From Paratinospora sagittata (taxonomy: Eukaryota > Streptophyta > Magnoliopsida > Ranunculales > Menispermaceae): 64,000 nt of DNA. Location of the stretch: positions 15,934,438 to 15,998,437 of the forward strand of contig CM069598.1 in assembly GCA_035771175.1 (NCBI GenBank). Direction: 5' to 3'. Below the pieces are notes generated by a model, which made no database searches, was not told the DNA's origin, and was given only the letters and a program-made list of their open reading frames with translations. The position numbers were made by a program, and so were the translations under genes. Below, in pieces: positions 4,476 to 62,316 of the stretch. Position 1 is the first letter of the stretch. The number at the start of each line of letters is the position of its first letter.

Positions 4476-5659
4476 AAAAGGCCTTATGTATAATATTGTC
4501 ACGACGCCTCTGAAGTAGGCTGACGTCATGACCGGCACAGTGTACTATACCCGTATACAGTATACAATACACTGTCAGCCTTCACGTACTCTCACAATCC
4601 ATCCCAAACTTACAGAATTATTATTTTTTTATACCACAAATCAAATCCAATCAACTAGCTATATAGATGATCATTCCACTCACATTCATTTCATTCATGT
4701 AAATTCCCAACTGATAAATACATTTCATCATCCCAAGCATTATATAATATTACCACACAACACATCTAGGTGATATTACATATATATAGTGTGTGATAAT
4801 TATACATATCAAAATAACAAAAATATGATCTATTTCCTCCAAGCATACCTACACGTACCAGAAGAAGGTTCACGTGATTATCACTCACGGAGTTTTCTTT
4901 TTCCCTTCGACTCAATACATGAAATATTGGAGGAAATGGGGTGAGCAATCAACAGCTCAGTGAATATAGTTCTTGAGATGCCAATTATATACATTTATAG
5001 AAATATGACATTTAAAATCATTTCAAACATTTATTCAACACATGCATCATTCAACGAATATATTGTACATGTCAACATCATAAAGTTCATGAATTTTCAA
5101 TAACATAATGCACAATCTCCCTCCTCCGCAAGGCAAGAGAGCGGGTCTAACCCTTGTATGGTCGTACAAGGTAGACACAGCTTCTTATCACCCAATTCAC
5201 AGTCATTTCAAGGATCGCAACCCTTGTTAGGAGAGACCTACTGACAATGAGGACTCGCAAAACCTCATCCGGGTCTAATTCCTAACGAAATGACAATGAA
5301 GATTCGCAAAACCTCATCATTACAAACTCCAATTGTTAAAATCAGTTTGCATGATCCATAAAACGCAATGCATTATATATACATATCACATGCATACAAT
5401 CAAACATTTTATATGCGTACAATGCCATACAAGAACCAAATCAAGGAAACTATACTCACAGTGGTTACACAGGGTTTCTAAGCCAACCTCTAAAATCGAG
5501 CAACAATAAACGTCATTGCTTCCTCAAAAGCGTATATCCATGCCCTTAAGCCTCAATTTAAACACTGAAATTATCCATAGAGTATCATGAGAATCATCAT
5601 TTACCATATCAGTAGCTACTAAAATATCAAATCACTGTTCACAGTACTATTCATTTTTT

Positions 5660-5660
<1 letters not shown>

Positions 5661-5709
<49 letters not shown>
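5661..5709. repeat. Heptanucleotide tandem repeat (CTATTCA)7
   Basis: Seven perfect copies of CTATTCA within LTR e. Confidence 0.95.
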
Positions 5710-8700
5710 TCCGAAAGCTGTAAATTGTATTAAAATTGTCAAATGGTCTCCAAAAATCATAAAATTGAATCTAACCACCCATTCGGGGTTCTAACAGTCC
5801 AGGGAGCATTTTTCTACCTTTCTAGCGGCTTTTCATTCACGTTGGGTCAAAAACCCCAATTTTTAAAAACGCCGTAAAACGGCTCCCACAACAATATTTA
5901 CTCCGCTAGACCTGTTACCTCTAACTTAGAGAATGAAAATCACTTACCGCGGGTTCGGATCTCCCTCCGTTTCCCCTTCTTTCTTCCTTCCTTCCTTTCC
6001 TTTCTCTTTGCACTTCTTCTCCTCCTTCTCTTTCTTTTGCAAATTCTTTTTTTTTCTTTTTTTTCTTTGTTTTCTCTTGTCGGCAAAGAGATAAGAGCAT
6101 TTTTTATTATTATTATTATTATTATTTTATTTTAATTTTGATCTCATGCTCCTTATGCAATTTACCAAACCAACTTCCCCATGTTATCCCATGCTCCTCA
6201 TGCAAGTTAACAAACCAACTTCCTCATCTATTAATCAATTTAATTTAACTCCAATTCACATATCTAATTAACCAACCCCATAAATTAATCAATTTAATTC
6301 AACTTCATTTTTTTATAGGATGATCTCATATGTATCATCTTCATTTCATAATTTTATTTATTTACTAATCATACACGCGTATATTTAGCGCATACGTATC
6401 AAATACGTGTAGTATCACGTGTATATTTAGCTCATACGTATAAAATATGTGTATTATACATCTCGATATACGCGTACTTCAATGTATGTATTTAATTAAA
6501 ATTACGGGATGTTACAATCAATTCCAAGTTCAATTATGTCTAATTGCATAATTCTCATAAAATCCTCAAATCCCTACAATTAATCACTCAACTCTAAATT
6601 ATCAATGTCCAACCCATAGGCATCCATCTTATCAAATTACATGATCATACAAAGTCTTGGCCTAGGCCAACATAAATCACTTGCATTCCATCACATGCTC
6701 AATTTATGAATTCCAAATTAATTGCACCAAAATCCTCAATTTAGAGAAATCTCTACAATAGGCCAACATTGCCAAATTAAACTAATCAACAATCCATAAA
6801 ATGAGAATTCCTCAATTGACACTACCAATATTTTAAGCATGCCAATTTACGCAACATAGGTCCCATGCATTCTAAATGGAAAGCTATAGGTCACATTTCT
6901 AGAGTTAGGGATACATGGATTCACATTTAAATACCTTTAATAATGAAATTGAAAACATTAATTACGCTCCTAATTCAATGCACTGTTCGGATGTAACAAA
7001 TTGCCAAACGAAATATCCAATAACTAAAATAATTGTTCAGATTCAAGAATATCAAGAGACAAACCTTCTATCCAAAATTGAGCTAAATCCAACTGCAGAT
7101 CAAAGATATATGTCTCTTTGATTAAGACAACTCTAATTTGACGGTTTCTCCCATCCTGCTGAAAATACTTGAACTCAGATGATTATATCTCATAAAATAC
7201 TCAACCAGTCAACATCTTAACCGTTCATAATGCCAAAAGTTCAATTGTAAACTATATGTTGAAGTATCACATCCATTCAACAGTAGATTTAAGAGATCCA
7301 ACAGTTTGATCTAAACTATGCAAGAAATCCAAATTTTCCGACCAATTGTATTTGGAAGGTTATAACTCTTGACATCAAACTCCGATCACAATCTCCACCG
7401 ACCATAATGAAGAGATATCAAAGATGAACAATGTGACCAATTTTAAGCTTGATCCAACTATGGATTAAAGAGATCTAGCCTCTGATGCTAAATGTTGCAA
7501 GAAAGCTTTCTTCTCTCATTCCTCTCCTTTTTTTCTTTTTTCTTTTTTTTTTTCCGTTCTCTTAACCTTACTCTCTCAAAAACGTCCCCTAAGGAAGAAA
7601 ATGAGAGATTGAGGCACCTGTTACACCACATGCACCCATTTTGCCAAGTGTTAATCATGCTTCAACACTATGCCAAGTGTTTGCTCAAGGGCTTATTTGT
7701 TAGCCACATGACCTCTATTCAATCACAACCTCACATGTGAGTTGTTAACCAATCCACTAATTCCAACAATTCCATCATTTTTTCTTTCATTTATTTAATC
7801 AATACATGCCCATTTCAAATCATGGTCCAAATGACCCCATTATATAACACATACATTAATATTAATATGTCACTATTAATATATTATTTTTAGTGATGTA
7901 TATTATTATCACTATCAATGCCATTGCACATAAATGACAATATTAATAATAATAATTATCTAAAATAGCATGCATTCCTAAGTAATAAATAAAAATCATA
8001 CATTATATATATATGATCAAAATACAAGTATAATACATATTAAATATTTACACAAACATCTAGAGTTGGGCAATCTACGTTACCGTGAGGTCATTTGTGA
8101 ATGTGGATCGTTACATTAGACATGACATAACATGCTAGAAACAAATAAGAATAAAGAAAAAAGTCAATGATCACTCCCACAGGTCACGCGTATTTGTCGA
8201 TTAATCGGATTCGTCAACACGTGATGCTTTCAACCTATATACACCCGTATTATATTCACATTAGTCATGTGTGCCTACATACATATTATCTTACATAAGG
8301 TATAAATAATATATTATAAGATCTTACAATACATATATCTTTATATATGAGATATACATAATATAAAATAATATATTTATATATACTTGTAAGTGTGGTA
8401 ACTTATGGAAGTTGCAGAGAGTACGTTAGTGATGATGGAGGTGCCACCGCCACCACCATATAACATATGTAAATATATAAGATACATATATACATTATGA
8501 TGTATACATATTAGTGGTTATTATTATATATATATATATATAATGTAGAGTACACATGTATAATATATATAATATATCTGTATATACACGGTATAATATA
8601 ATACAACCTAACCCACATATAATATTATATAACATAATTTGTATAACCTAATATAATATATCATCTTGTCTATAATAATCCACACATATACAATATTATA

Positions 8701-25587: not shown

Positions 25588-25700
25588 TTTTGTTGCAGAA
25601 AGTCCTTGAACTCGAAAACTTGTGTGTCTATTCAGTGTTGGAGGTGATAAGGGTTTTGGGAGTGCGTTTTGGGCGAGTACGGTTGTATGTTTCTTTTAAG

Positions 25701-26562: not shown

Positions 26563-29372
26563 TGTGACAATCTCGCACCCCGGACCACCAACCCCGCAGG
26601 AAATGGCGTGCGAAATGCCGGAGCGGGACGCCTGACGTAGGCATCTCCAACCACTCCTCAACCCCTGTAAGGTGGTTGAGACCCTACGAGCCTTATCCCA
26701 AACAACGACAAAATATAAAATGGTACTAAACAAAACTACCAACCATATTAATCATCAAAGACGAGATAATCCATAAAAATAAACCATAAATAAAACCATA
26801 ATCCCTACAGCCCATCAAGATGGACATACACAAAGTTCAAAACTATGGGTACAAAAAAAACCGTCATATGCCCACATGGTCTATCTAACAAGTCCCAACT
26901 CACCCATACTACAATGTGGTAAGTGTTATAATTACATAGTCCAAAATATAATACATTATAATTTAAAACACAGTTCAATCAAAATGCCTCTCAACTCACA
27001 TCGAGGCCTTGAATTATCTCACCGACAAGGCCCTCAAGATATGACTACTCCTTTGCCCTTATTTGGGATAAAAGGACATGAAAGAGAAAAATGAGGGTGA
27101 GCCAACGGTGCCCAGTGAATAGAATTCAAATATGCTATCAATACTCATCAATAAATATCATGTATGCATGTCAATGTGTAGCATGATTAAAAGCTCATAA
27201 CATATATATATCAAGCATTTATAATAAGTTCGATAAAAGTAAAAGCCTATCAATTTGGATCCACATTCCACTCGCATTGGGGTTACTAGTGCACGTCTAT
27301 TTCACCGTACCGTTCTCATCCCCAAATATTTCCTTTCTAAAACCTTCTCATGACAAGGTTAAGTCTCCCTATTAGCCAGATAGATGGGCCCAACCAAAGT
27401 CATAAGGTTTTCTCAAATCAATGCATCATTCAAAACATTAGAACACATTCATGCTTTCAACATACAATATATATAAGTGATATGATGACATAAAAAATAT
27501 AATCATAAATGAAGTCTACTCGCAACCAAGCCTCGCGAAAGTATCTAACCACACACGGAGACCTAACTGAATCAACCCAATCAAGGTCCTGAAACATTCA
27601 TCAATATCCAACCATACATCAATTCCTATGTTCAATCACATAAACATTACACATCAACTTTAAATCAACCCACAAATAGACAACAGGCCTAAATCCCATC
27701 TAATCCCATGACTTAACTCAAATCACATGACTTAGGCCTCTAATGCATAGTTCTCATTCATAAACCATTCAATTAATCAAAAATACTGATTTTTAATTCC
27801 TTAGGCATAAACATGCCCAAATTGGGCCATTTGATCACAAGTAGGCCTAACCCATGATATGGTCACAACCACCTAATCAGTAGCATAATCAACCATAATC
27901 ATGCTTAATTAGATATAAATTGCATCAATTCAATGATTCTAGGCCAAAAACATCAAAAACCCTAAAATATGAAATTTTCCATACTTAGGCCATATTGTCG
28001 ATTTACACTAGGTCACCATGTTCAGCCATGTATATCACTGATTTTGCATCATGGGTTCATCAACAATGGCAACTAGGTCAACATAGTTGACATGCAAGCT
28101 ATTTGGAAATGTCTAAATTCATATTCTAAATTTAGGTCTAATACAAACAACCCTACCAATTTTTCATTTAATATTCTGTTCAGATGTATCAAGCTACCAA
28201 CAGAAATACTTAATCATAAAATCAACCGTACAGATTGAAGTATGTTAAGAAGCAAACCTTCTCTCCAAAATTCAGCTCAATCCAACGGTGGACCGAAGAG
28301 ATAGGGTCTTTGATGAACAAGTCTATAATCAGACAATTTCTCCTTTCCTGCTGCAAATACTTGAATTCATATGACTATATCACACAAAATACTTGACCCA
28401 TCAACATCTCAATAGTTCGTAATGCAGAAATATTAGTTTTGAACCATCTTCTGAAATATCATATCATTCTAACAGTAGGTTTAGGAGATCTATCAGTTTG
28501 ATCTAAACTGCGCGAGAAATTCAAACTTCCCGACTAGCTTTGTTTGGGAGGTTATATCTCTCAGAAGAAAACTCCAATCAAGATCTCCACCGAATTGAAT
28601 AAATAACCATAAGATATGAACTGTCTGACAAAGTTTGAGCTCAATCTGACCATATATCACCAAGATCCAGTACTTTGATGAAAACGTTGTTGAGGCTTCC
28701 CTCAAAGCAACTTCCTCTTTCTTTATCTTTTTCTTTCCTTTCTCTTCTTTTTTCCTTTCCCTCCACTCATCTCACTCTCTAGGACTTCCTTGGAGAAGAG
28801 AAGTGGGGCATGGGACACTTGTCCACTCTCATGCACCAACTTGACATGTGTTGGGGAAGAGAAATGGGGCATGAGACACTTGTGCACTCTCATGCACCAA
28901 CTTGACATGTGTTGGTCTCATGCACCAACTTGACATGTGTTGGAGAAGAGAAATGGGGCATGGGACACTTGTCCATTCTCATGCACCAACTTGACATGTG
29001 TTGGTCTCATACTACACATACCAACCACATGTACTTTAACCAACTTCATGCTTCCATGTATTTTAAATGCCCAATCTATCTAATACACCAAATTTTCATT
29101 CTCATTTATCCTTTTATTTAATCAATCCTAACCCATATCAATTCATGGTTTAATGGGCCCATGCATATATAATAACACATGCATTATACTTTAATTTAAC
29201 ATGACCCATATACAATTTATAGTGCACATATTTATATACATTATCAAGCATCAAATATACAAACATTAAACAACCATCAAACAAACACCAAACATATGAA
29301 GGCAAACACATAGAGTTTGGGCAAAATACAATTGGGTTATGGGCTAGATGAAATAATTTTCCGGGCGTCACA
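26563..29372 (-). mobile_element. Solo LTR a
   Basis: Starts TGTGACAATCTCGCACCCC and ends CCGGGCGTCACA, with a perfect 5-bp TSD AAAGA (26558-26562 and 29373-29377). It is 2810 bp with no coding domain and interrupts a copia pol frame. On the minus strand a donor-like AGAAG|GTTTGC lies at 28257. The acceptor position near 27080 reads TTTCATG, where copy b has TTTCAG. A short minisatellite with the word CACCAACTTGACATGTGTTG occupies about 28790-29010. Confidence 0.92.
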
Positions 29373-31678: not shown

Positions 31679-34512
31679 TGTGGCGACCCCGCACCCCGGA
31701 CCACCAACCCCTCAGGGAATGGCGTGCGAAATGCCGGGACGGGACGCCCGGCGTAGGCATCTCCGACCACTCCTCAACTCCCGTGAGGTGGTTTAGACCC
31801 TACGAGCCTTATCTCAAATAACGACATAATATCAAAAGGTACTAAACAAAATTACCCACCGTATTAATCATCCAAGACAAGAGATAGTCCATAAAAATGA
31901 TCCATAAATAAAATCATAATCCCTACAGTCCATTAAAATTGACATACACATAAAGTCCAAAATTGTGGGTACAAATAAAAATCGTCATATGCCCACATGG
32001 TCTATCCAACAAGTCCCAACTCACCCATACTACAATGTGGTAAGTATTATAATTACATAATCCAAAATATAATACTTCATAATTTAAAACACAATTCAAT
32101 CAAAATGCCTCTCAACTCACATCGAGGCTTTGGATTCTCTCGCAGGCAAGGCCCTCAAGATATAACTACTCCTTTGCCCTTATTCGGGACAGAAGGACCT
32201 GAAAGAGGAAAATGAGGGTGAGCCAACGGTGCCCAGTGAATAGAATTCAAATATGCTATCAATACTCATCAATAAATATCATGTATGCATGTCAATGTGT
32301 AGCATGATTAAAAGCTCATAACATATAGATATCAACCATTTATAATAAGTTCGATGCAAGTAAAAGCTTATCAATTTGGATCCACATTCCACATGCATTG
32401 GGTTACTAGTGCACGTCTATTTCACCGTACCGTTGACCCCAATATCTTCCTTTCCTAAAACCCTCCTATGACAAGGTTAAGTCCCCATATTAGCCAGATA
32501 GATGGGCCCAACCAAAGTCATAAGGTTTTCTCAAATCAATGCATCATTCAAAACATTAGAACACATTCATGCTTTCAACATACAATATATAAGTGATATG
32601 ATGACATAAAAGATATAATCATAAATGAAGTCTACTCACAACCAAGCCTCGTGAGAGTATTTAACCACACACGACCACCAAACCGAATCAACCCAATCAA
32701 GATCCTGAAACATACATCAATATCCTACCATACATCAATTTCTATGTTCAATCACATAGACATTACACATCAACCCTAAATCAGCCCACATATAAACAAT
32801 AGGCCTAAATCCCATCTAATCCCATCATTCAACTCAAATCACATGACTTAGGCCTCTAATGTATAGTTCTCATACATAAACCATTCTATTAATCAAAAAT
32901 ACTGATTTTCAATTCCTTAGGCATAAACATGCCCAAATTGGGTCACTTGATCACAAGTAGGCCTAACCCATGATATGGTCACAACCACCAAATCAGTAGC
33001 ATAATCAACTCTAATCATGCTTAATTAAACATAAGTTGCATCAATTCAATGATTTTAGGCCAAGAGCATCAAAATCCCTAAAATATGAAATTTTTCATAC
33101 TTAGGCCATATTGCCGATTTACACTAGGTCACCATGTTCAGCCATGTATATCACTGATTTTGCATCATGGTTTCATCAACAATGACAACTAGGTCAACAT
33201 AGTTGCCATGCAAGCTATTTGGAAAGGTCTAAGTTCATATTCTAAATTTAGGTCTAATACAAGCAACCCTACCAATTCTTCATTTACTATTCTGTTAAGA
33301 TGTATCAATATACCAACAGAAAGATGTAATCACAAAATCAACCGTACAGATTGAAGTATATGAAGAAACAAACCTTCTGTCCAAATATCAGCTCAATCCA
33401 ACAGTGGACCGAAAAGATAAGTATATTTGATGAACAAGTCTCTAATTAGACAATTTCTCCTTTCCTGCTGCAAATACTCAAACTCAGATGACTATATCAC
33501 ACAAAATACTAAATGCATAAACATCTCACCGTTCAGAATACATAAGTATCAGTTATAAACTACATACCCAAATTTGATATCCATCCAACGGTAGATTGAG
33601 GAGATCTACAAGTTTGACCGAAACGGTGCGAGAAATCCAGACTTTCCGACCAGCATTGTTTGAGAGGTTATATCTCTTAGACGAAACCTCTGATCAAGAT
33701 CTCCACCGACCAGAATGAATAACCATAAGCTACGAACTTGCTGACAAATTTTAAGCTCAATCGGACCATGTATTCCAAAGATCCAGCTCTTTGATGAAAA
33801 TGTCGCAGAGATCTTCCTCCTGCAACTCCCTCCTTCTTTATCTTCTTCTTTCCTTTCTCTTCTTTTCTTTCTCTTCTTTTTTTCCTTTCTCTCCACTCAC
33901 CTCTTTCTAGCACTTCCTTGATTCCCTCCTCCATTCACCTCACTTTCTAGCACATTCTTGGATTCTCTCCTCCACTCACCTCATTTTCTAGCACAATCTT
34001 GGATTCTCTCCTCTACTCACCTCATTTTGTAGCACATTCTTGGATTCTCTCCTCCACTCACCTCACTTTCTAGCACATTCTTGGATTAGAGAAGTGGGCA
34101 TGGGACACTTGTCCACTTTCATGCACCAACCTTCACATGTGTTGGTCTCATACTACCCATACCAACCACATGTACTTTAACCAATCTCATGCTTCCATGT
34201 ATTTTAAATGTTCAATCCATTTAATACACCAAATTTTCATTCTCATTTATCCTTTTATTCAATCAATCCTAACCCATATCAATTCATGGTTTGATGGGCC
34301 CATGCATAAATAATAACATATGCATTATACTTTAATTTAACATGACCCATATACAATTTATGATACACATATTTATATACATTGTCAAGCATCAACTATA
34401 CAAACATTAAACAACCATCAAACAAACACCAAACATATCAAGGCAACACATAGAGTTTGGGCAAAATGCAATTGGGTTATGGGCTAGATGAAATAATTTT
34501 CGGGGCGTCACA
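31679..34512 (-). mobile_element. Solo LTR b, inserted at the start of copia gag
   Basis: Starts TGTGGCGACCCC and ends GGGGCGTCACA, with a perfect TSD CTATC (31674-31678 and 34513-34517). It is 2834 bp and the same subfamily as a and c. The gag frame resumes on the other side of the insert. Minus-strand donor-like AGAAG|GTTTG at 33373 and acceptor-like CCTCTTTCAG|G at 32199 bracket 1175 nt. It carries a 46-bp minisatellite, about four units, at 33895-34090, absent from a and c. Confidence 0.93.
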
Positions 34513-38702: not shown

Positions 38703-40594
38703 TATAACGCCCCGTACGTCGGTTAAACGTAAATGTTGACTTATACGTATGTTTATTGACCTTAGAATAGTGAAAATATAAGTATGGTAGGATCATTTAT
38801 ACATTAGGATGTTAGTTGTGTCATAGAATATTCCATACTTAGAGAAATTTCAAACCAAACCGTAAGGAACGCGCTCCTTGTGAAGGAGTACACTCATGTG
38901 GTAAATTTCAGATAGCATGATTTTTCAGTTTTCTTAAGGAACGCGCTCCTCAAAGGAAAGCAGAGAAAAAAAATCTTCTGTGCAGAGTAGGAATGTGCTC
39001 CTTCAAGAAGGAACGCGTTCCTTGAAGCCTGACAACATTTTTTTTAAATGGTCGGTGAGGTGGTTAGTTGATTTTAAAATAAAAACTCGCTCATTTCAGC
39101 GACCGAAAAGAGGGAAACAAAGGGGGAAAGGAAACAGGAGCTAGGGATTGTGATTCCAAGGTGAGTTTTGCTCCGATATCAATAAAAATGGTGTAGATTT
39201 GTTTGTTGAGAAAAAATATGCAACATATATCATTTTTGTAGATTTTTGACGATTGAAATTGTGGATTTGAGAAACGAGATTGGAGCTTGGATGTGTGGAT
39301 TTTCATGGGAAATTGATAGGCAAATGATTTGTGGTTGAAATTGATGTTATTGCCTTTGATTTGGTGTAAAAAGAATGGATTTTTCATGGTGGAAAACCCA
39401 ATCTCTGCAGCTGTAAGCAATTGAGGGTTTTAGAGGTTTCTTTTGGTATTTTTTTTGGGTAATTTGAATGTGTTTGAGCTAGAAATAACTTGGGAAATAA
39501 TCGATTATTGTTTGTATGTAATTTACAACAAGAATTATGGACTGAATTGGTGATTTGGACAAGTTGTATGTGAGTAGCTAGTGTGTCAAGTAATAGGCAT
39601 TGCGTTGTCTGTGAGTTTCTTGACTTTGGTTCCTTGTGTATGACAATGTATGATATAAATTGTGTTTCAAATCAAGAATATGTATCTGTATTTGTATTAT
39701 TTTAAATTCATGAAAATGTTATACTTAGAAGCATATTTTGGACTTGCTATAACAAATTAAAACATGAGATCATTTACAGAAGACAGTCCCGTATAAGGGT
39801 CGAATAATCTCATGGTTCGAGTGATAGTTTCTAAATGGAATTGAGATTAAGTCCTAATTTGAAATAATCTATAGCAAAGAATTGGGTAATAAGAGGTTTG
39901 TTGCGTAGACTCCTTATAAATGCATAAAAATGAGTGAATCTCTATTACTAGAAGGAGCGAGATGGTATGATTTTATTGTAATCCTATATGTTTTTGGAAT
40001 TATATTATGCACATGTGTCTATTGTAAAATGTTTCATACGTGTTTCGAACGAGATTTGAATGTATTAATTCATGTATTTCTGTAAATGCGTATATGATGC
40101 TATAGTTAAAAATATTCACTGAGCTGTGCTTGCTCACCCAATTTTCAAACATTTCAGGTTCGGATCCCAAGGGTAAAGGAAAAGCGCGTGAAGGATAAAA
40201 AATCCTTCTCCTTTTAATATGTATATAATGTTTGAGAATAGAATGTTTAATTATTATTTTGTGTTATGGTTTTGTATATAACGCTATCTAAGTATATGTA
40301 TCACAAAGATGAGATGTGAGAATGGGTTTTGAATGGTTATATGGATGTGTATATATGGAAATGCAAGGTTTAGATGATGAATGGAAATGAATGATTATAT
40401 ATATATTGTGGTGTGTTTGACTTTGTGATAATTAAGTTGTTATATGACCAATAAACAAAGGATGTTGTTAAAATTTTGAGAAAAATTAGGATATGATTTC
40501 GAATAAAGTTTACAGAGTATTATATATGCTTTAACATGACGAATCGTATCTTGTGCGAGTGATGAAGTAACTCACATGGAGACATTCAAGCTTC
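38703..40594 (+). mobile_element. LTR i, inserted in LINE-1
   Basis: Begins TATAACGCCCCGTACG, a decayed version of the TGTAACGCCCCG start of this LTR group, and interrupts LINE-1 between endonuclease and RT. CTTTC at 38698-38702 and 40595-40599 is a candidate TSD, but the implied right end AAGCTTC lacks the expected CA, so this boundary is tentative. The donor CCAAG|GTGAGT at 39161 and acceptor CATTTCAG|G at 40157 are strong, 997 nt apart. CACTGAGC...GCTCACCC at 40110-40140 precedes the acceptor. It is on the opposite strand to LINE-1. Confidence 0.72.
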
Positions 40595-40599
40595 CTTTC

Positions 40600-41141
40600 C
40601 TTTTATTGCACATGTATACAGAGGACCTTTAAAGCCCAGATCTTGAAGAGCACAGACCTCTACAACATTTCTAAACTCCTCAATCTGTCTTGCGGGCTTA
40701 GGAGAGCTCCCCTTTTTCTCTTTAGGTTCTAGAACTTCATTAAAATCTCCTACTAAGAGCCAAGGAGAATCAGGACCTTCATCAAGCCTCTTCATTAATT
40801 CCAAAGTAAATTTCCTGTTAGCAACTTCTGGTTCCCCATAGATGTCTGAAAGACGCCATTTGTCACCATCCTTCTCCACCCAAACATCAATGTGCCCTTG
40901 CGGTATTGATCTAAGAGAAATGTGAATAGGATCTTTCCAAAGCAAGATTAATCCACCCCCAATACCCCTTCTGTCACTGGCTAGACAACCGTCATAACCC
41001 AAAGCAACCTTCAACTTCATAATCTTCACCTTTAGCAGCCTTGCTTCTATGATGAAGAGCACTTTGGGATCTTGGCTCGCGCAAATCACGAAATGTACGA
41101 ATGTTCCCAAGCCCTCGCACATTCCAGCTGAGGAGCCTCAT
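40600..41141 (-). pseudogene. LINE-1 APE-type endonuclease
   Basis: Starts MRLLSWNVRGLGN at 41141, the classic plant LINE endonuclease start. A frameshift follows, and from about 41080 the frame gives DPKVLFIIEARL, GGGLILLWK, SDIYGEP and LLVGDFNEVL with the GDFNE catalytic motif. It ends where LTR i begins. Confidence 0.88.
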
Positions 41142-42496
41142 TTTTGTAGGCAGGGATGCTGAGCAAACCCTGCCTTTTCCAAAGAATTAAGAGAGGATTG
41201 GTCGACTGTTTTGAGTTTCTTATGCTCTGGTTTATCTCTATTATCCAAACGCTGCAGCTTCCTCTTTGTCTGAACATCTCCTAGGCTTTGATTTATTTCA
41301 GCTACTTGGGCTGATTTTTGGAGCACCTCTGTTTGGGCATCGTCATTGCTTTTTGTCGGATGGGCTTCATCATTTAGTAAAGTCATTTGGGTTTTGGCTA
41401 TTTCTTGAGAAATAGATCCGTCTAGCTTTTGGGCTTCATTAATAGCCTGTATTTCAGGCCCATCTTTCATCTCAGTATCTCCTTCAGAAAATAGCACGAG
41501 GCTTCTCTCCTCTTTCTGGATTTCTTCTCTTATGCTCGGTACAGAACGCATTAAATGAGTCGCCATGCCTCTGCGGAACTACTGAAAGTGGAGGCCGAGC
41601 CGGATTTTCTACTGCTGAGCCATGATTACTTCTGACGTCATCGATTTCCAGACCTTGATCACTCAAACCGCCGGAGATAACATGTTGTTTAGTTTCCGAT
41701 CACCAGAAACTTATTCCCCACCTCTGCTACTACCATCTTCGAGGCTTTCCGTACTGGATTTCGGCTTCGACCCTTCCGAAAAACGTAGCCACGCTCCATA
41801 ATGAAGATTCTTCTTCCTTGCTTCATCCTCCTCCAATATAAACTTTTCACAATTCTTCATGGTATGGGTCATCAAGCCACAGAAGTAGCAAACGTCTGGA
41901 AGACGTTTATATTTCAACTCCACCCAAATTGGGTTTTGATTAGTGGGAAGCTTGATTTTGATTCCGCTTCGACATCAAACCTTGCCCTTAGTTTTAGCGA
42001 TTTTCCCTAATAGCACTACCTCTGATCTTCCGTGATTTCCATGAAACGCCCTAATGCATTCCCGATTACGATTCCAATATCTTTTGTCATGCATGCTATT
42101 GGGAGGTTGAAGGCGTGAACCCAAAAACTTGCCCATTTCATCAGTCTCCGACCTTTTATTTACATCCACCTCCGTTAAAACCACCAAGGCCTTGTCGAAG
42201 TGCCAAGGTTCTCGATCTAGGACTCTTTTCTTGTCCACTAGATTATCAAACTGGAGAAGGAAAATATTTTCGCCCACTTCAGTATAATTTACCTGCTTGG
42301 AAGTTTTCCAAATCTGGTTCATAGTCCATCTGAATATTTCCTTACAAATTGGTTTTGCCGCAAAAACTTTCGCATAGAGACAATTCTTCTAGTTGTTTCT
42401 TTGTTCTACGAGCTTGCCTCTTTCGACTTCAACTATCTGATCCTCCTCACAGGTCATGGAAAATGCCTTCCAAAGGTTCTCAACTTCATCTTCCAT
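41142..42496 (-). pseudogene. LINE-1 ORF1-like DUF4283/zinc-knuckle protein
   Basis: Begins MEDEVENLWKAF (42496). A stop follows near residue 35, then a DUF4283 core: ENIFLLQFDNLVDKKRVLDR and EPWHFDKALVVL. A CCHC_4 zinc knuckle (LPDVCYFCGLMTHTMKNC) lies near 41890. The remainder is charged and low-complexity. In this LINE class the protein binds RNA. Confidence 0.85.
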
Positions 42497-42605
42497 CTTA
42501 CTTCTACTACGAGAAGACGAGATTCTCAGTCACGAGAGACTTAAATTGTTATCTAATTTATAAAACAATAAAGAAGAAGAAGTTAAAACCTTGTAGAAAG
42601 AGTGA

Positions 42606-43000
42606 TTTTTAAAAAAATTAAAAAATTAATTTTTATTGATTCTTAATACTGTATTAATCCTTAATTTAAAGATTTAGGTTATAACGTTTTTAAATTTGGA
42701 ATTATCATATTTTATTTTAAACCCAAGTATCATATTTATTTTAAAAAATAAACAAAAATATGAATACAGAAAAAATGAAATAAATTATTTTTTATTGATT
42801 GTTAATACTATATTAATCCTTAATTTTAAGATATAGGTTCTAACGTTTTTAAATTTAGAATTATCATATTTTATTTTTAACCCAAGTATCATATTTATTT
42901 TCAAAAAATAAACAAAAATATGAATACAAAAAAAATTAAAAAAATTAATTTTTATTGATTCTTAATACTATATTAATCCTTAATTTTAAGATATAGGTTA
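42606..43000. repeat. Tandem repeat, about 160-bp unit, 2.4 copies
   Basis: Successive copies begin near 42627, 42785 and 42944, each starting with a TTTTTATTGATT block. All share TATTAATCCTTAATTT, and the first two also share ATTATCATATTTTATTTT. Confidence 0.9.
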
Positions 43001-43649
43001 ACCTGTTCAGTAGAAGAACGCCTCTTTAACTTTTATTAAAAAAAGAACCAAAAGAAAAAAACTTGCACGAGGGTCACGTGGCACGACTCCCGTGCAGGGT
43101 ATGCGTAGTCGCGGACCTGATGGTCTGTGAAAACACTCTGATTTTAGAAGGGTTCTGTTCTTTTGTTAGTTGTCTATCTCCTTAATACGGTGATGTGCTG
43201 TTTCTGCATGCAGGGGTTATGAGGCCCTTTATTTATGTCATATTATTTGTTAAGACTTCTTTTTAAGGCATTAATTGTTTTTGATATTAAAAAAAAAAAA
43301 TATTAGTAATTAGTTGTATAATCATCTTCTTTACCATATTATATTCTTGGAGAGGTATTAGGCCCCTTCCTAATTTATTAATCCCTCTCACCTCTAAAGG
43401 TGAGATACTGGCGATAGTTAAATCTAAATCCTTTGAGTTTTAAAACTATCTCTTTACTAATTACATTAACTCTAAGTTGACTTTAAGGCATTAGAGTAAA
43501 GCATTTCTAAACATTTCTCTTTTAATTAGAAAAATGGAATAATAGGCAATTGGGTCTTTTCTTAACATTTCTCTTCTATTTTAGAAAATTGGATAATTAG
43601 GTTTCTAATATACAATTATTGTTATTATTATTATTATTTTAAAGCAAAT
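43001..43649. other. Intergenic DNA between two LINEs
   Basis: AT-rich sequence with a short A tract at about 43290-43300 and a (TTA)n run near 43620-43637. No gene is recognised. A GC-richer stretch at 43070-43120 has no frame of note. Confidence 0.4.
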
Positions 43650-43715
43650 ATGATTCAAGACCTGCTAGATAAACAAAGGAATTGGATAACGGATCATGAA
43701 CATGTGGCATAAATA

Positions 43716-43989
43716 GTGGAGAACTACTTTCAAGAGTTATTCATGTCTACCGACCTTTCCAATCATGCAATAGCTTATGCTCTAGAAAACTTGCCCCGTA
43801 AGGTGAATGAAGAAATGAATAGAAAACTCACGCAGCCTTTCCAAAGCTTTGAAGTAAAATCTGCACTTAATCAAATGGGCCCTATAAAAAGTCTTGGCCT
43901 TGACGAGCGTTCAACCATTTTTTACCTAAAATATTGGCATATAATGGGTGAGGATGTTAATAGAGTCTGTTTATCTTTTTTGAATGGGG
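43716..43989 (+). pseudogene. LINE-2 reverse transcriptase, N-terminal part
   Basis: The frame has ENYFQELFMS, NRKLTQPFQSFEVKSALNQM and KSLGLDE...FYLKYWHIMG, the usual region before the RT palm. It is cut by LTR j and resumes at 46797. Confidence 0.85.
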
Positions 43990-46796
43990 TGTAGCACCGT
44001 ACCTTTGAATGACGTTATTTTGATCCATAATATATATATGTATTTGATGCTCGATGTGCGTAGATTTGAGTGTCTTTATATAATTTTAGGTCATAGAGAG
44101 TGCGCATAAAGTTTCAAAACCATCGGAGACCCGTTCGATGTCGAAATATGTCGAAAATGGTATTTTGGATCCAGTGGAGCTCGCTCCATAAAGGAAGAAA
44201 TTTTTGTCACCGATTACATTAATAAATTGATATCCTAGACCGTGGTCCGATTGAGCTGAAATTTTGTCAGCTTATTCTTCGCTGATAGATATTCCTTATG
44301 GACGGTGAAAGTCTTGATCGAAGTTATCTACTGTGAGTTATAAGACTCCAAACACTGTTTCTCGGATTTACATATTTTCTTGCGCAGTTTTGATCAAACA
44401 GTTTGATCTCACAATCCCACCGTTGGATTGAGCTAAAAATTTACCATAAGGTTGGTAACTGACTCATAAAAATTGTGAACGATTAAGATGTTAAGTTTGC
44501 GAGTAGTTTGCAAGAAATTGATTATCTAAATGCAAGTAATTACAATAGGAAAATCTATTTTTTGGCAACTTTATGTGTGGGCCCAAGCACTTCTATAAAA
44601 GCAACCAACACCTAATTTTCGGCTCATTTGCACTTTTTTCACTTAGAAAAGAGGGAAGGAAGGAAACCCTAGGGTTTGGGGATTTTTGCTAAAAAATCCA
44701 CAAGGTTTGCACATTTTCCTTGTTTTCTTACTTAAATCTCTTTAGTTCAAGCATGTGAATTTCATTTTGATCTATGCAATGGTATGAACCATGGATTGGT
44801 GGTGTTCCAGCCCTAGATTTTAGTTGCATGTGCCCTTTTAAGCTTGCTTATGATGCTAATGACCTTCCATGACTTAAACCCACACCTAAGATGTGCTTTC
44901 CACACATGAATCCCGAAATTGAAGGGAGTGGTGGGAAAATATAGGTTGGACTTAGGCTTTGCATGTCATGTATGTTTGATTAGAGGCCATTAGGAACTTA
45001 CTGAAGGTAAAACCCCCAATTTCTAGCAAGAAATTGGAATGGTTATGTGTATTGACCTAAACCCTAGATTTTGGACTTAGGGTTTGCTATTGGATTTGCA
45101 TGCAATGTAATGTGGATGTGTAGTGGTCCAATTTACTGATTTTGATGGCTGAAAACCCTAGGTGTAGTGCAATTTTGGCTTAGGCCATGTGAATTGAGAA
45201 ATTGCAATTAATTTGGAGATTTTCCCAAATTTGGGGGATTTTGACTCAATTGATGTCAATTGATCAAATTGACTTAGGAATTGTCTAATTGGACCCAAAT
45301 TGAATGAAATTATGGGTTTAGAATGGTTGGAAATGTGTTAGAATTGAATGACCTAGTTCAATTTGGCTCTATGCCTATTGTAGAGATTTTTCCCCAAATT
45401 GGGGCATATGCTATGTATTGGCTTGAATTGGGGATTTTGACTTAGATTTGGTCAATTGATTAAATTGACATGAGATTAGTCTACTTAACCCTATTTATGA
45501 TTGAATGACATGTATTATAGTGGTTGGATCAACCTATTGCATTCAACTGGGTTAAATGTGGGTTAATGTAGTATTAAATAGTTAAATTGAGCAATATGAG
45601 ATTGGCTCATGTGTTAGACAATTTTAGAATCTTAATTGGCTTTTGATTTGAGTTTAAACATGGTGGTTTAGCATACTTTAAGGCCGATTTTTAGTTTTGG
45701 TAAACCATGTTATTTCAGGATCTTGTGGTTGATCTATATAACCCAAATAGTCAATTGGAGGTTATGGTGCTTGAGGTGATTTGTGCATCCAAGTGCTTTC
45801 TTTGGTTGGATTGGAATTGGATTGACTAAGTCTAGCCAATCAAGTTGTGAGTGTCCCTTTACATTTGGATTTCTATATGTGGCATTGTATTACTTAAATT
45901 GATTTAAATTGATATCTATAAGTGTTATGCATGTTTTAATGTTCCATGAAATGATTTTGAGCATAGTCTATAAGGTTAGCAATTTGGTTGGGTCTCATAG
46001 TTGAGATTTTCTTTAGGAAGTCTCGTAAGTCTACTGGTGATCCTCAGTTGTGGATCTGGCAGAGGGTTTTATGGCTTGTGTATAGGTAGGATAGCTTAGG
46101 CTGGTCCTACGTGCTGCACGACCCTAGAAATCCTACTAGAATACGAGTATTGTTTGGTTGGATCGGGCGCTGTGTGTCGGGCATCAGGCCTTTGATCGCC
46201 TTTGCTCAGGAGGTGTTAAGATTGCATTGACATGTTTAGAAATGATATGCATTGTCTTTGTTATGACATGATGCATTATATTGACATGTATGTAATCTTG
46301 TTTAATCACCATATTGTTTCAAATGCTTTTATGATCTTGCCATGTTTTATATAAATGCACGTATATTGCCACTTGTAGAAGATATTCACTGAGCTTGTTG
46401 TAGCTCACACCTCACCTTTTCTTTCAGGATTGGATAGGAAAGGGAAAGGGAAGGCTTGACTGCGAAACACTCCCTTGCTTTTTGTTGATGTAGATGTTGT
46501 ACATTCTTTTGTATTTTGATATTATGTACATGATAACACCTAGTATATGTATAACACATAGATGGGATGTGAACGGTTTGTATTATTTTGTGGACTTATG
46601 AAATTTTATATTTGGTAATTTTGGAGATGCAATATTTTTATTTATTGTTGTTGATCATGTTAGATGGATGCTTTATGGATTGTGTTTTTATTGGGATCCG
46701 CATTAAATTAGGCTGATGGGACGCCGGGTGTACCGATAGAGGGTATATTTGGGGGTTCCGTGCCAGTTATGACGTCATGTATAGTAGGTCGTGACA
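43990..46796 (+). mobile_element. Solo LTR j, inserted in LINE-2
   Basis: Starts TGTAGCACCGTACC and ends AGGTCGTGACA, with a perfect TSD TGGGG (43985-43989 and 46797-46801). The LINE frame continues across the two breakpoints once the insert and one TSD copy are removed, confirming the boundaries. It is 2807 bp. A TATA box (CTATAAAAG) at 44594-44601 is followed by donor-like CACAAG|GTTTGC (44705) and acceptor-like CTTTTCTTTCAG|G (46427), 1723 nt apart. It is a member of the long-LTR group with no coding domain of its own. Confidence 0.93.
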
Positions 46797-52512: not shown

Positions 52513-53809
52513 TGTCACACCCCGCCTAGACGAGCCTAAACTGGCGGAACACTCACAGACGGGGCGCGAATGCATTAAAACAGTTACCGAGTGAGCAGGT
52601 ACACAATTGAGTACAAATCTGATTTTATTAATTTCAGAATGTATTTTTGTACAAAATATAATTAAGGGAGCATCCTCCCAAAATCTCCCTAATAATCAAA
52701 CAAAGGGTACAAAATGAGGGCCCAAAGACCTCCACCCAATCCACCCTAGACTCTTGTAAAAATGATTAACAACGGGGTGAGCTATTGCCCAATGGGTAAA
52801 ATAATTCGTGAATACGACAATTAATAAAGAAGACTTCATAATCAAACATCACATATACATAACATAACATCATAAATAGTGCAACACGTATGTATGCATG
52901 ACACCGTCGCGTAATGGTTCTGTGATAGTACATAGCCCTAGATTCACGTACGAATGTCCATTTCTAGGTAATCCCGGGTTCACATTGTACGTCCCTCTCC
53001 AGGAGAAACATCAAGAATAGTGAGCATTGCTCCAATAACTATTTTTTAGATCACAAACCACTTATGTCCCTAGGTGGTTATGTATGATGACTATGCATGA
53101 GCAGGTCCGGTCTTTACTAATATTAGACAGGTTTTGGCAACGTCTGGTGATACTTATCAGGTCAGCATCACCACGTACGTTGTTAGGATGTCCAGTATAA
53201 CTTGTACAAGCAGATTACTTTCAAATAAGACCAACTAGATCAGTCTCTAATCGAGAGGTGGGACACAAGGTCCGCTTAAATACCACGTCTTCTAGAGCAG
53301 CAAGCTGCCTTATGTTCACTATTCAAAGTTACTGAGGACAAAGTTAAATCTGGTTGAGTCAAATTGACCACTAATTCGGCGTAGTAACAGTGTAATACAT
53401 AGACTCCAAATATTAAGACATAACTATAATGTGTATGAACATTATAGGCAATAATGCAGTGTAAATGAATAATAGACATAATGATAAATGAATGAAAACT
53501 TTAATAAAAGTCATAAGACACGCAAACCTATGTTTCGTTCCCCACCTTCAGATAAAACTTCTTTCTAGAACTGGCGCTTCTTCCTGAGCAGAACTGCGTT
53601 GCACCGCGAAGAGTCTCTAGGAGAGAGTCTCAAAAAAAAGGATAGAGAAAATCACAATAAGAGTGATGAACCAACCAAAGAGAGCAAGAGAGAAGAGTGA
53701 GTTGTGGTGTGAGAATGAGGGGTGGGGGGGAGGGCTTTTATAGAAAAAAAGATGCCCGAACGTTTGGGAAAGCCTAATTTTTTTTTTGGTGTAATTTAGG
53801 GGTATTACA
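52513..53809 (-). mobile_element. Solo LTR g
   Basis: Starts TGTCACACCCCGCC and ends GGGGTATTACA, with a perfect TSD TGTAG (52508-52512 and 53810-53814). It is 1297 bp. On the minus strand, TATA box CTATAAAAGCCC at 53733-53743, donor-like CATAG|GTTTGCG at 53527 and acceptor-like TTTTTACAAG near 52751 follow in order. Confidence 0.93.
53205..53360 (-). repeat. Copia-LTR-like module C inside LTR g
   Basis: About 135 bp similar to the copia LTR at 34580-34720, including GTGGTATTTAAGCGGACC and CTGCTCTAGAAGACG on the minus strand, with the same orientation and spacing. It lies within the putative intron of LTR g. Confidence 0.7.
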
Positions 53810-54215: not shown

Positions 54216-55955
54216 TGTCACACCTCGATTTTTTGGCGTTTACATTTTCAGGTAAAATTAATAAATAGATAAGTGCATTTTTTTTAACCAAGGAGATAGC
54301 CAAGAACCGAGGTGTGAGTGGTATCTATCGGCCTTAACCTGAAACCATTATACAAATAGTAAAACTTTTACAATATCACTAAGGTAAATGAATACCCTTT
54401 CAATATCTATGTCAAAGGACAATGTATTTTCATTATATTAGTTTCCATATTTTACCATGAGGGTCTTTACCCTAGTTCATCTATTGTGGACCTATATTTA
54501 GAATTATTAATGTAACAAATTCCATGTCCAAGGCATTCACATTTAAAATGAGTCATAATCTCTTTATTGATTGTAATGAAGTACCATAAAAGTAGTGATT
54601 ACTATTACAACTCATTTAATAGTTTAGAAATCAAATGATTTACAATACTACCCAAGTTACTAACCCACCCACAAGCTTGCACTTTATTCTTCTAATTACT
54701 TGCATGTGAAAAATATGGGTGAGTTAGAAAGCCTAGTGAGTCCTTCATAAACATTCACAACATTTTACTCAGATATATATGTAAGAACATGCAAACAAGT
54801 TTTACACATTAACGTTGCACGCACTTAATTGTTTGAGTCTAGAGTTTTGTCACTTATCACCAATGAGTATCTTCATGGAATCATTCCCAAGTGGCAGTCA
54901 ACCCAAAAACTCATAATCATTGATACAACAATCATCTGTGATATTTATTAAGAATAACTGCTTGAAGTGATTGCTGGTGATATTCTTGATCTTCAAGAAT
55001 AACTGCCCGTGGAATTCTTATCATAATAGTGTTCTTTAGTGATATCATGCATATTATATGAATGTCATATAAGTCAAATCATACCAACATTCATCATTCC
55101 TATAACCATATTTCCATGATAACCATATCGTCACATAATATTGATATCATATTATCATCATAATTTCACAAAATTAACAAACACCACAACATTATCATCA
55201 TATTATGCAACGTATCATGTATCATGAATCATATAAACAACTTATAACTAATCATGCATGGTATTAATTATGTTTCTCCGCACATATCCAAGAAAAATAT
55301 TGTAAAGATTACGAAATCATTCCCACCTGAATCGCTATATTCCCAAGCCTGGGGCATTTTCAACCTTTGATATTCAAGTTTTTTGACCTTCACCTAGTTG
55401 CTTATGTGTTAGGAGTAAGAGAAGGACGAATCTAGTCAAATGTTCAAGAAAAAGGGAAATTAATATTAAAGAGGAGAGCACTCTAGAAAATATTTTCTAA
55501 TGTGGAAGATCTGTCAAGTCCGCAACCACAAAGTATACTAGAATTTCCAAGAGAAAGCTTGCTACTTTGCTACCTAAAACCTTTCATTTGAGGGGGTATT
55601 TATACTAGAATTCATTCAATCAACACCACACAATTAAAAATTCACAAAAAAGTCATGACCATACACATGTAATACGTCATACCTAATTTGGATTATTCTA
55701 AAAAATCATGGCTATACACATGTAATAAATCATACCTAATTTTTTTCTTTTTACCTAATTTTAAATAATGGGCTTGGACTTAATTTTAGGCCTTATCTTG
55801 GGTTTGATCATAGATTTACTCTTGATTTGATGTTGGGTTTGGGCTTTAAACGTGATCATGGTCATGAGCTCAAAATAATTTATACTATACTAATCTTCTC
55901 ATATACATCGTATAGTTAATATTTATTTATTGGTTATATATATTGTATGTTTACA
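54216..55955 (-). mobile_element. LTR h, right end unresolved
   Basis: Starts TGTCACACCTCG at the boundary of the second hAT MITE. Its layout and sequence resemble LTR f: ACCGAGGTGTGAGTGG block, GGGTGAGTTAGAAAGCC block. On the minus strand, TATAAATA lies at 55598-55605, donor-like TTCAG|GTGGGA at 55326 and acceptor-like CACATGCAAG at 54699. GTTTACA at about 55949-55955 is a possible end, but no matching TSD is found (left flank CCCCT). A tandem duplication of about 60 bp lies at 55634-55745. Confidence 0.6.
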
Positions 55956-59441: not shown

Positions 59442-62316
59442 TGTGGCGACCCTGCACCCCGGACCACCAACCCCGCAAGGAATGACGTGCGGAATGCCGG
59501 GGCGGGACACCCGACGTAAGCATCTCCAACCACTCCTTAACCCCCGTGAGGTGGTTGAGACCCTACGAGCCTCATCTCAAACAATGACATAATATAAAAA
59601 TGTACTAAACAAAACTACCAACCGTATTAATCATCCAAGACAAGAGATAATCCATAAAAATGAACCATAAAGAAAATCATAATCCCTATAGTCTATCAAG
59701 ATGGACATACACATAAAGTCTAAAACTATGGGTACAAAAAAAATCGTCATATGCCCACATGGTCTATCTAACAAGTCCTAACTCACCCATACTACAATGT
59801 GGTAAGTGTTATAATTACATAGTCCAAAATATAATACATCATAATTTAAAACACAGTTCAATCAAAATGCCTCTCAACTTACATCGAGGCCTTGGATTCT
59901 CTCGTCGGCAAGGCCCGCAAGATATGACTACTTCTTTGCCCTTATTTGGGACAGAAGGATCTAAAAGAGGAAAATGAGGGTGAGCCAACGGTGCCCAGTG
60001 AATAGAATTCAAATATGCTATCAATACTCATCAATAAATATCATGTATGCATGTTAATGTGTAGCATGATTAAAAGCTCATAACATATAGATATCAAGCA
60101 TTTATAATAAGTTCGATGCAAATAAAAGTCTATCAATTTGGATCAGCATTTCACATGCATTGGGGTTGTGCACGTCTATTTCACTGTACCGTTCTCATCC
60201 CCAAATATTTTCTTTCTAAAACCCTCCTATGACAAGGTTAAGTCTCCCTATTAGCCAGATAGATGGGCCAAACCATAGTCATAAGGTTTTCTCAAATCAA
60301 TGCATCATTCAAAACATTAGAACATATTCATGCTTTCAACATACAATATATATATAAGTGATATGATGACATAAAAGATATAATCATAAATGAAGTCTAC
60401 TCGCAACCAAGCCTCGCGAGAGTATCTAACCACACACGCACACCAAACCAAATCAAGCTAATCAAGGTCCTGAAACATTCATCAATATCCAACCATACAT
60501 CAATTCCTATGCTCAATCACATAGACATTACACATCAACCTTAAATCAGCCCACATATAAACAATAGACCTAAATCCCATCTAATCCCATCATTCAACTC
60601 AAATCACATGACTTAGGCCTCTAATGCATAGTTCTCATTCATAAACCATTCAATTAATCAAAAATACTGATTTTCAATTCCTTAGGGATAAACATGCCCA
60701 AATTGGGTCATTTGATCACAAGTAGGCCTAACCCATGATATGGTCATAACCACCTAATCAGTAGCATAATCAACCCTAATCATGCTTAATTAGACATAAA
60801 TTGCATTAATTCAATGATTTTAGGCCAAAAGCATCAAAAGCCCTAAAATATGAAATTTTCCATACTTAGGCCATATTGTCGATTTACACTAGGTCACCAT
60901 GTTCAACCATGTATATCATTGATTTTGCATCATGGGTTCATCAAAAATGGCAACTAGGTCAACATAGTTGACGTGCAAGCTATTTGAAAAGGTCTAAGTT
61001 CATATTCTAAATTTAGGTCTAATACAAACAACCCTACCAATTTTTCATTTAATATTCTGTTCAGATGTATCAAGCTGCCAACAGAAATATATAATCACAA
61101 AATCAACCGTATAGATTGAAGTATGTTAAGAGTCAAACCTTATGTCCAAACATCAGCTCAATCCAACGGTGGACCGAAGAGATAGGCCTCTTTGATGAAC
61201 AAGTCTCTAATCAGACAATTTCTCATTTCCTACTGCAAATACTTGACCTCAGATGACTATATCACACAAAATACCTAACCCATCAACATCTCAACCGTTC
61301 ATAATGCAGATATATTCGTTGTGAACCACCCTCTAAAATCTCATATCCATCCAACAGTAATTTTAGGAGATCTATCAGTTTGGATCTAAACTGCTCGAGA
61401 AATTTAGACCTTTCGACCAGCTTTGTTTGAGAGGTTATATCTCTCAGAAGAAAACTCCAATCAAGATCTCCGCCGACTAGAATGAATAACCATAAGATAT
61501 GAACTTTCTGAAAAAGTTTGAACTCAATCTGACTATATAGCATTAAGATCCAGTTCTTTGATGAAAATGTTGCTGAGATTTCCCTCAAAGCAACTTCTTC
61601 TTTCTTTCTCTTTTTCTTTCCTTTCTCTTCTTTTTTCCTTTCCCTCCACTCATCTCACTCTCTAGGACTTCCTTGGAAAAGAGAAGTGGGCATGGGACAC
61701 TTGTCCACTCTCATGCACCAACTTGACATGTGTTGGAGAAGAGAAATGAGGCATGAGACACTTGTACATTCTCATGCACCAACTTGACATGTATTGGAGA
61801 AGAGAAATGGGGCATGAGACATTTTTCCATTCTCATGCATCAACTTGACATGTGTTGGTCTCATGCACCAACTTAACATGTGTTGGAGAAGAGAAATGGG
61901 GCATGGGACACTTATCCATTTTCATGCACCAACTTGACATGTGTTGGTCTCATACTACCCATACCAACCATATATACTTTAACCAATCTTATGCTTGCAT
62001 GTATTTTAAATGCCCAATCCATCTAATACACCAAATTTTCATTTTCATTTATCATTTTATTCAATCAATCCTAACTCATATTAATTCATGGTTTAATGGG
62101 CTCATGCATAAATAATAACATATGCATTATACTTTAATTTAACATGACCCATATATAATTTATAATGCACATATTTATATACATTATCAAGCATCAAAAT
62201 ATGCAAATATTAAACAACCATTAAATAAACACCAAACATACTAAGGCAAACACATAGAGTTTGGACAAAATACAATTGAGTTATGGGCTAGAGGAAATAA
62301 TTTTCGAGGTGTCACA
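59442..62316 (-). mobile_element. LTR c, same subfamily as a and b
   Basis: Starts TGTGGCGACCCTGCACCCC and ends CGAGGTGTCACA, 2875 bp, collinear with a and b. Flanks GAATA and CATAA do not form a TSD. Donor-like ATAAG|GTTTGAC at 61138 and acceptor-like CTCTTTTAG at 59961 (minus strand) are 1178 nt apart. The CACCAACTTGACATGTGTTG minisatellite has more units (about 61690-61950) than in a. Confidence 0.9.

Follow-up and report, generated by a model that had tools for sequence, protein, structure and literature searches.

A group of long terminal repeats (LTRs) in the genome of Paratinospora sagittata probably carries an intron in the transcript leader that lies inside the repeat, is spliced from some of the RNA and is retained in the unspliced RNA that is copied. 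The repeats in question are ten LTRs, a to j, in a 64,000-nucleotide stretch of contig CM069598.1 (positions 15,934,438 to 15,998,437, forward strand; the window), which is part of contig C10 of the 1.29 Gb genome searched, together with related copies found elsewhere. The proposal is founded on the order of the splice signals, their conservation between families, jumps in base composition and the occurrence of the acceptor at either end, 5' LTR and 3' LTR, of three elements. From these we infer splicing itself, a start of transcription in the LTR, a role for a conserved hairpin and a division of the RNA between messenger and genome. The intron would be of the spliceosomal U2 type and wholly contained in the LTR. 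A transcript initiated in the LTR would begin with a purine-rich untranslated exon 1, continue into a T-rich intron and reach a 3' module made up of a hairpin (TGRGC-loop-GCTCA) that includes CTCAC, a pyrimidine tract and AG; exon 2, the remaining LTR, the primer site and gag would follow. Splicing would shorten a long mRNA leader, while the RNA left unspliced would serve as the genome for copying and pass the intron on to new LTRs. The proposed intron is approximately 1 to 1.7 kb in the copies measured, and about 0.6 to 1.7 kb by the figures of an earlier sequence-only reading of the window.

The acceptor-side block

The acceptor-side block is real, and both the block and its AG go beyond chance. 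The sequence-only reading had named the block as the feature best shared by these LTRs. Across the genome TATTCACTGAGC was present in 9,475 copies against 30 for a reversed-word control, and ATTCACTGGGC in 9,401 copies against 112 for its reversed control. Within the window, the relaxed motif CAYTRRGY followed after 2 to 14 bases by CTCAY was found at ten places, corresponding to LTRs a to j. The downstream order in the block is CTCAC, then pyrimidines, then the first AG. Sixty places fetched from the TATTCACTGAGC list yielded 59 distinct blocks, mostly from the one large family of LTR e and hence non-independent, and the distance from CTCA to the first AG was 20 to 26 nt in 57 of these and exactly 23 nt in 48; the two outside this range were L014 and L046. 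In all 15 representatives of families and subfamilies, which were chosen by hand and not at random, the first AG stood 19 to 25 nt past CTCA with 68 to 95% pyrimidine between. As background, the chance of a first AG at 19 to 30 nt from random points in the i and j introns was 0.19. Among 18 GGGC places fetched, 15 carried the block and three (L140, L142 and L143) were other sequence; in L153 an altered first CTCA brings the measured distance to 14 nt. CTCAC fits the plant consensus for a branch point. A branch-point-like sequence and an AG-free pyrimidine tract ahead of AG, as expected of a plant U2-type intron, were thus found together. An Rfam scan of the window gave no matches, nor did a search for the block in viral contigs, while a search of prokaryote genomes returned 59 stretches from bacteria and archaea and was not used as evidence.

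The branch-point-like CTCAC lies in the putative hairpin. Its stem, TGRGC with GCTCA, pairs fully in 12 of the 15 representatives, with loops of 4 to 8 nt; d forms four of five pairs, h three of five, and L019m was placed in the wrong register by the script used for the comparison. The sole variation in the stem that preserves pairing is a change from A-U to G-U. Our guess is that the hairpin masks the branch point, so that splicing stays partial.

Donor sites and base composition

Eight family groups (e, E2, i, j, L128, L129/L132, L133 and L131) have a donor that follows a purine-rich leader near the beginning of the LTR. In 20 aligned copies of the e family the leader ends at GTAAGT (10), GTAAGC (5) or GTAACT (3), GT being kept in 18; of the other two, one has AT and one is without the leader. 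The end of the exon varies in this family while the donor GT is conserved. Greater conservation of GT and AG than of neighbouring bases across many copies was the test suggested with the sequence-only reading; it is a weak one, since decay in dead copies is even, and it is the families that need to be compared with each other. A donor after a similar leader was found in five of seven stretches fetched from other families and was not identified in L130 and L134. With exon/intron boundaries marked by a slash, these donors read AATCCAAA/GTAAGC in L129, AATCCAAG/GTAAGC in L132, AATCCAAG/GTAAGG in L133, TTCGAAG/GTAAAG in L128 and AACCAG/GTAATG in L131. The donor GT of the E2 family was kept in three of three copies.

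Plant U2-type introns are characterised by a T-rich intron between T-poor exons, and this was the composition observed. When GT sites were ranked by the jump in T content, all 16 donor copies tested fell within the top three of their own stretch; these had been picked beforehand for motif and leader and not blind, making this a consistency check only, and one of the copies, L110, has an altered acceptor. T content drops again past the acceptor in i, j and six e copies.

Two of the donors proposed for the window by the sequence-only reading, those of j and i, were supported by their ranks. LTR j (43990..46796, plus strand) is a solo LTR flanked by the 5-bp target repeat TGGGG. Its proposed intron, CACAAG/GTTTGC to TTTCAG, occupies 44705..46427 with a donor ranking 2nd of 144 GT sites, and a putative TATA-like box stands ahead of exon 1 at 44594..44600. 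The conserved 3' module at 46383..46408 comprises TATTCACTGAGC and the hairpin TGAGC with GCTCA, including CTCAC; exon 2 starts at 46428..46459 with the phase-1 frame LDRKGKGKA followed by TGA. LTR i begins at 38703 on the same strand and has a proposed intron at 39161..40157 (CCAAG/GTGAGT to TTTCAG, donor 3rd of 90), a 3' module at 40113-40137 and an exon 2 start at 40158..40198 in which the phase-1 frame SDPKGKGKAREG is followed by TAA. A TATA motif at a constant position ahead of the donor was not seen in 13 e copies.

A second GTGAGT was observed midway through the proposed intron, 486 to 647 nt ahead of TATTCACTGAGC, in L128 to L134, in e copies L012, L015, L016, L025 and L026 and in i. 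No open frame precedes it; it is perhaps an alternative donor or marks a small exon.

Proposed retention of the intron through copying

The acceptor was present in both LTRs of all three elements checked. Element L135 carries the block in both of its identical LTRs, and in two E2 elements the acceptors of the 5' and 3' LTRs have a spelling of their own for each pair, GTATGAATTC in L191 and L196 and GTATTAATTC in L193 and L197. Presence in both LTRs suggests either that the RNA that was copied had kept the intron or that strand transfer restored this part.

The coding-like start of exon 2

At its start exon 2 reads AAR-GGN-AAR-GGN-AAR, which looks like coding sequence. In phase 1 directly past AG, the frame of a/b/c, d, e, E2, i, j, L029, L048 and L126 gives a few residues, KGKGK or a close form, a few further residues and a stop codon; the KGKGK stretch is lacking in f, g and h. 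Its offset from AG differs by multiples of three, being mostly 11 nt but 8 in L048, 17 in b and 2 in L195. Third codon positions vary (in 7, 7, 2, 6 and 6 of the 15 representatives), as against 0 to 2 at the other positions. The pattern looks like selection on a protein, the other option being a purine-biased exonic splicing enhancer.

Two coding arrangements were rejected. Against a small protein spanning exons 1 and 2, the matching phase of exon 1 in i, L133, L131, L190 and several e copies either meets a stop soon before the donor or has no ATG past its final stop; a matching-phase ATG was present in exon 1 of five e copies. A frame running through the acceptor was discarded, as the lengths of loop and tract vary.

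Weighing of the explanations

Several observations weigh against a leader intron. The coding look of exon 2 is unexpected in a purely untranslated leader, and a 3' splice site does not require so long a conserved block. No two-sided compensatory changes in the hairpin were found among the 15 representatives. The donors proposed for a to d (AAG/GTTTG) rank only 9th to 16th of 120 to 155 GT sites for the T jump. Splicing would yield, as a side product, intronless LTRs in which exon 1 runs directly into exon 2, and an exact-pattern search of the genome for the e type returned none; this absence is narrow, since the exact junction search answered for the e type only. The spliced leader proposed by the sequence-only reading is nonetheless the best fit to the signal order and T jumps of the eight family groups, even though several of its sites were wrong and the coding-like exon 2 had been missed.

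It is conceivable, though unlikely, that one LTR 3' splice site has two jobs, ending the leader intron in the 5' LTR and opening the last pol exon in the 3' LTR, where it would supply a lysine-glycine tail with splicing tied to polyadenylation; the hairpin would keep splicing partial and leave unspliced RNA for copying. We consider it improbable that the acceptor belongs mainly to a terminal exon. Under that explanation the 3' LTR copy would take a donor at the end of pol, the last pol codons (..KGKGK..stop) would lie in the LTR, splicing would be coupled to polyadenylation and the 5' LTR copy would be little used. The variation at third codon positions and the AG offsets in multiples of three speak for it, as does the end of pol in the a/b/c family, which reads ATG GGC TTA G/GT AAT TCT TAA and so offers a donor-like site in matching phase; TTAG/GTA was found in L135 and in all 14 further a/b/c copies, 12 of these having GTAAT and two GTATT. 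In the E2 family, however, which has many long open frames, TGA stands directly ahead of G/GTAC in 18 of 20 copies (TGA being present in 19), so that a KGKGK tail cannot follow pol in frame. Moreover, three e-type relics have GA instead of GT at the end of pol, the frame after KGKG is lost in large e subfamilies, and the donors within the LTRs would be left unexplained. The pol-end relic of L137 and exon 2 of the e-type L108/L109 have a common stretch resembling TTTCNGGTATTGAGT, by chance or through an old exchange.

A decayed inheritance, in which the features are common through shared LTR ancestry and the intron works in none of the elements now, is highly improbable. The classified elements do form one lineage with similar LTR ends, and the copies sampled are mostly old; yet LTRs of different families align only partly while the splice-like features persist, and these also occur where a family has many long open frames and where the LTRs are identical. 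Least credible is that the block is a core promoter (TATA and start site) or another DNA element with an incidental splice-like look, since, although e copies have TATATAA approximately 30 bp ahead of TTCACT at promoter-like spacing and conservation extends upstream of the hairpin, TATATAA is lacking in other families and subfamilies (L016, L026, abc) and a promoter predicts neither the AG-free tract, the AG, the fixed phase past it nor an upstream donor.

The other LTRs of the window

The intron-like architecture had been proposed for all ten LTRs. The strings quoted for it are present in the window and the block, in its relaxed form, occurs in every LTR. The donor is supported in e, i and j but weak in a to d and f, and the acceptors of e and g had been misplaced. 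GT and AG at fixed places in related copies, as expected of plant U2-type introns, were found, with the same weakness for the a to d and f donors. LTR e (4497..6516, minus strand, as are all LTRs that follow) has its donor GTAAGT at 5947. Its acceptor had been placed at 4911; the family site is TTTCAG/GTATTGAG, whose CAG has become CAT in the window copy (4921-4919).

LTR a (26563..29372) is a solo LTR with target repeat TCTTT, and its acceptor CAG is mutated to CAT, as had been read. In LTR c (59442..62316) the acceptor at 59961 is still an AG, in the form TAG, and no matching target repeat was seen. The ranks given above leave the donors of both weak, together with those of b (33373) and d (7064), which are doubtful. 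The a to d donors adjoin repeats that in j stand upstream of its TATA box. LTR b (31679..34512) has its acceptor at 32199 and is a solo LTR that interrupts the gag of a Ty1/copia element, with GATAG on both sides; an assignment of b as a Ty1/copia LTR was therefore rejected. Its leader repeats (33890-34090) hold four donor-like GAG/GTGAGT sites, each repeat having one, so that the listed donor is only a candidate. U3-like repeats around CCGTTGGATTGAGCTGAAATTT occur at 44243-44492 in j and 33520-33768 in b, with 69% identity. For d, the 3' module, the acceptor at 3445 and an exon 2 start reading LDPKGKGKA then TGA lie within 3413..3488.

The 3' module and acceptor of f (2350..2385) are not followed by KGKGK, and the donor listed for it, CGTGACCT/GTGGGA, is not donor-like and not credible. 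In g the donor GTTTGC at 53527 ranks 2nd of 65 GT sites, and the proposed intron runs to the first AG past CTCAC (52753..53527), which precedes the acceptor listed earlier; decayed primer-site-like sequence lies beyond the LTR end. The h intron (54699..55326) would extend from GTGGGA at 55326, which ranks 5th of 65 GT sites, as far as AAG at 54699; its hairpin stem forms only three of five pairs. The window also contains a PPR-DYW frame at 23860-25695, in keeping with a land plant.

Classification of the elements

Element L135, of the a/b/c family, has LTRs identical over the 2,543 bp compared, and after a TGGTATCAGAGCC primer site its frames encode protease, reverse transcriptase, RNase H, integrase and SH3_Tf2-1 in Ty3/gypsy order. 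Together with 5-bp target repeats at the solo LTRs a, b and j, the domain order and primer site are those of Ty3/gypsy LTR retrotransposons; f, g and h are unclassified. A pol piece ahead of an e-type LTR also matches SH3_Tf2-1. LTRs a to e, i and j were treated as putative families of one Ty3/gypsy lineage, d, i and j by the likeness of LTR parts, and, to the extent that classification was achieved, the earlier description as divergent LTRs is better replaced by one of families within a single lineage. The lineage is probably Tekay-like, a name (Tekay or Del chromovirus) that we presume from the pol end and polypurine tract region. Members of that clade carry a chromodomain C-terminally on their integrase; Pfam analysis of L135 found SH3_Tf2-1 and no chromodomain match at E 0.001. 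The E2 family has open frames of up to 1,578 amino acids (150 matches scored of 15,386 candidates).

The gag part of L135 (L135:2845-3408) is short, lies in a frame different from that of protease and reverse transcriptase, and may lack part of gag. Elsewhere, four blocks on the same strand at an even spacing of approximately 3,740 bases (C1:1290252-1301485) suggest that LTRs alternate there with a short internal region in a tandem array.

Relation to known systems

Introns in the 5' untranslated region of plant genes combine an untranslated first exon with a T-rich first intron and may boost expression. The proposed LTR intron would resemble these in its untranslated exon 1 and T-rich first intron, but they belong to host genes and not to repeats that must survive copying through RNA. 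In human T-cell leukaemia virus, bovine leukaemia virus and foamy viruses the major donor lies in R. A donor close to the start of the RNA is likewise the point of resemblance to retroviruses, whose acceptor, in contrast, belongs to the internal region at a long distance downstream; their LTR alone is thus not a complete intron. The retroviral major splice donor lies near the 5' end of the RNA, where bound U1 suppresses the 5' poly(A) signal, according to passages of PMC10186651.

Introns in plant LTR elements are already known. In Ogre, a Ty3/gypsy element of the Tat clade, an intron is spliced in part of the transcripts, as described in passages of PMC6317226 and PMC12786077. The proposed LTR intron would share with that of Ogre its place in a plant Ty3/gypsy element and its partial splicing, the difference being that it is inside the LTR; an Ogre-type intron between protease and reverse transcriptase was not found in L135, where RVP_2, RVT_1 and RNase H are encoded in a single open frame. 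In EVADE and BARE1 (Ty1/copia) alternative splicing to short GAG divides the tasks of the RNA, as outlined in part of PMC12786077. As plant LTR elements with alternative splicing they resemble what is proposed here, but they belong to another superfamily, and what is spliced out is the protease region of their coding sequence. No description of an intron inside a plant LTR was found in the open-licence literature searched, and within that literature an intron wholly in the LTR, with a 3' module strongly conserved across many families, seems to be new.

Each of the nearly 19,000 block copies in this genome would be a potential 3' splice site, often accompanied by a nearby donor, and such LTRs could shape host transcripts at the sites of their insertion. 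The proposal also raises the question of how an intron in a repeated region survives a life cycle based on RNA.

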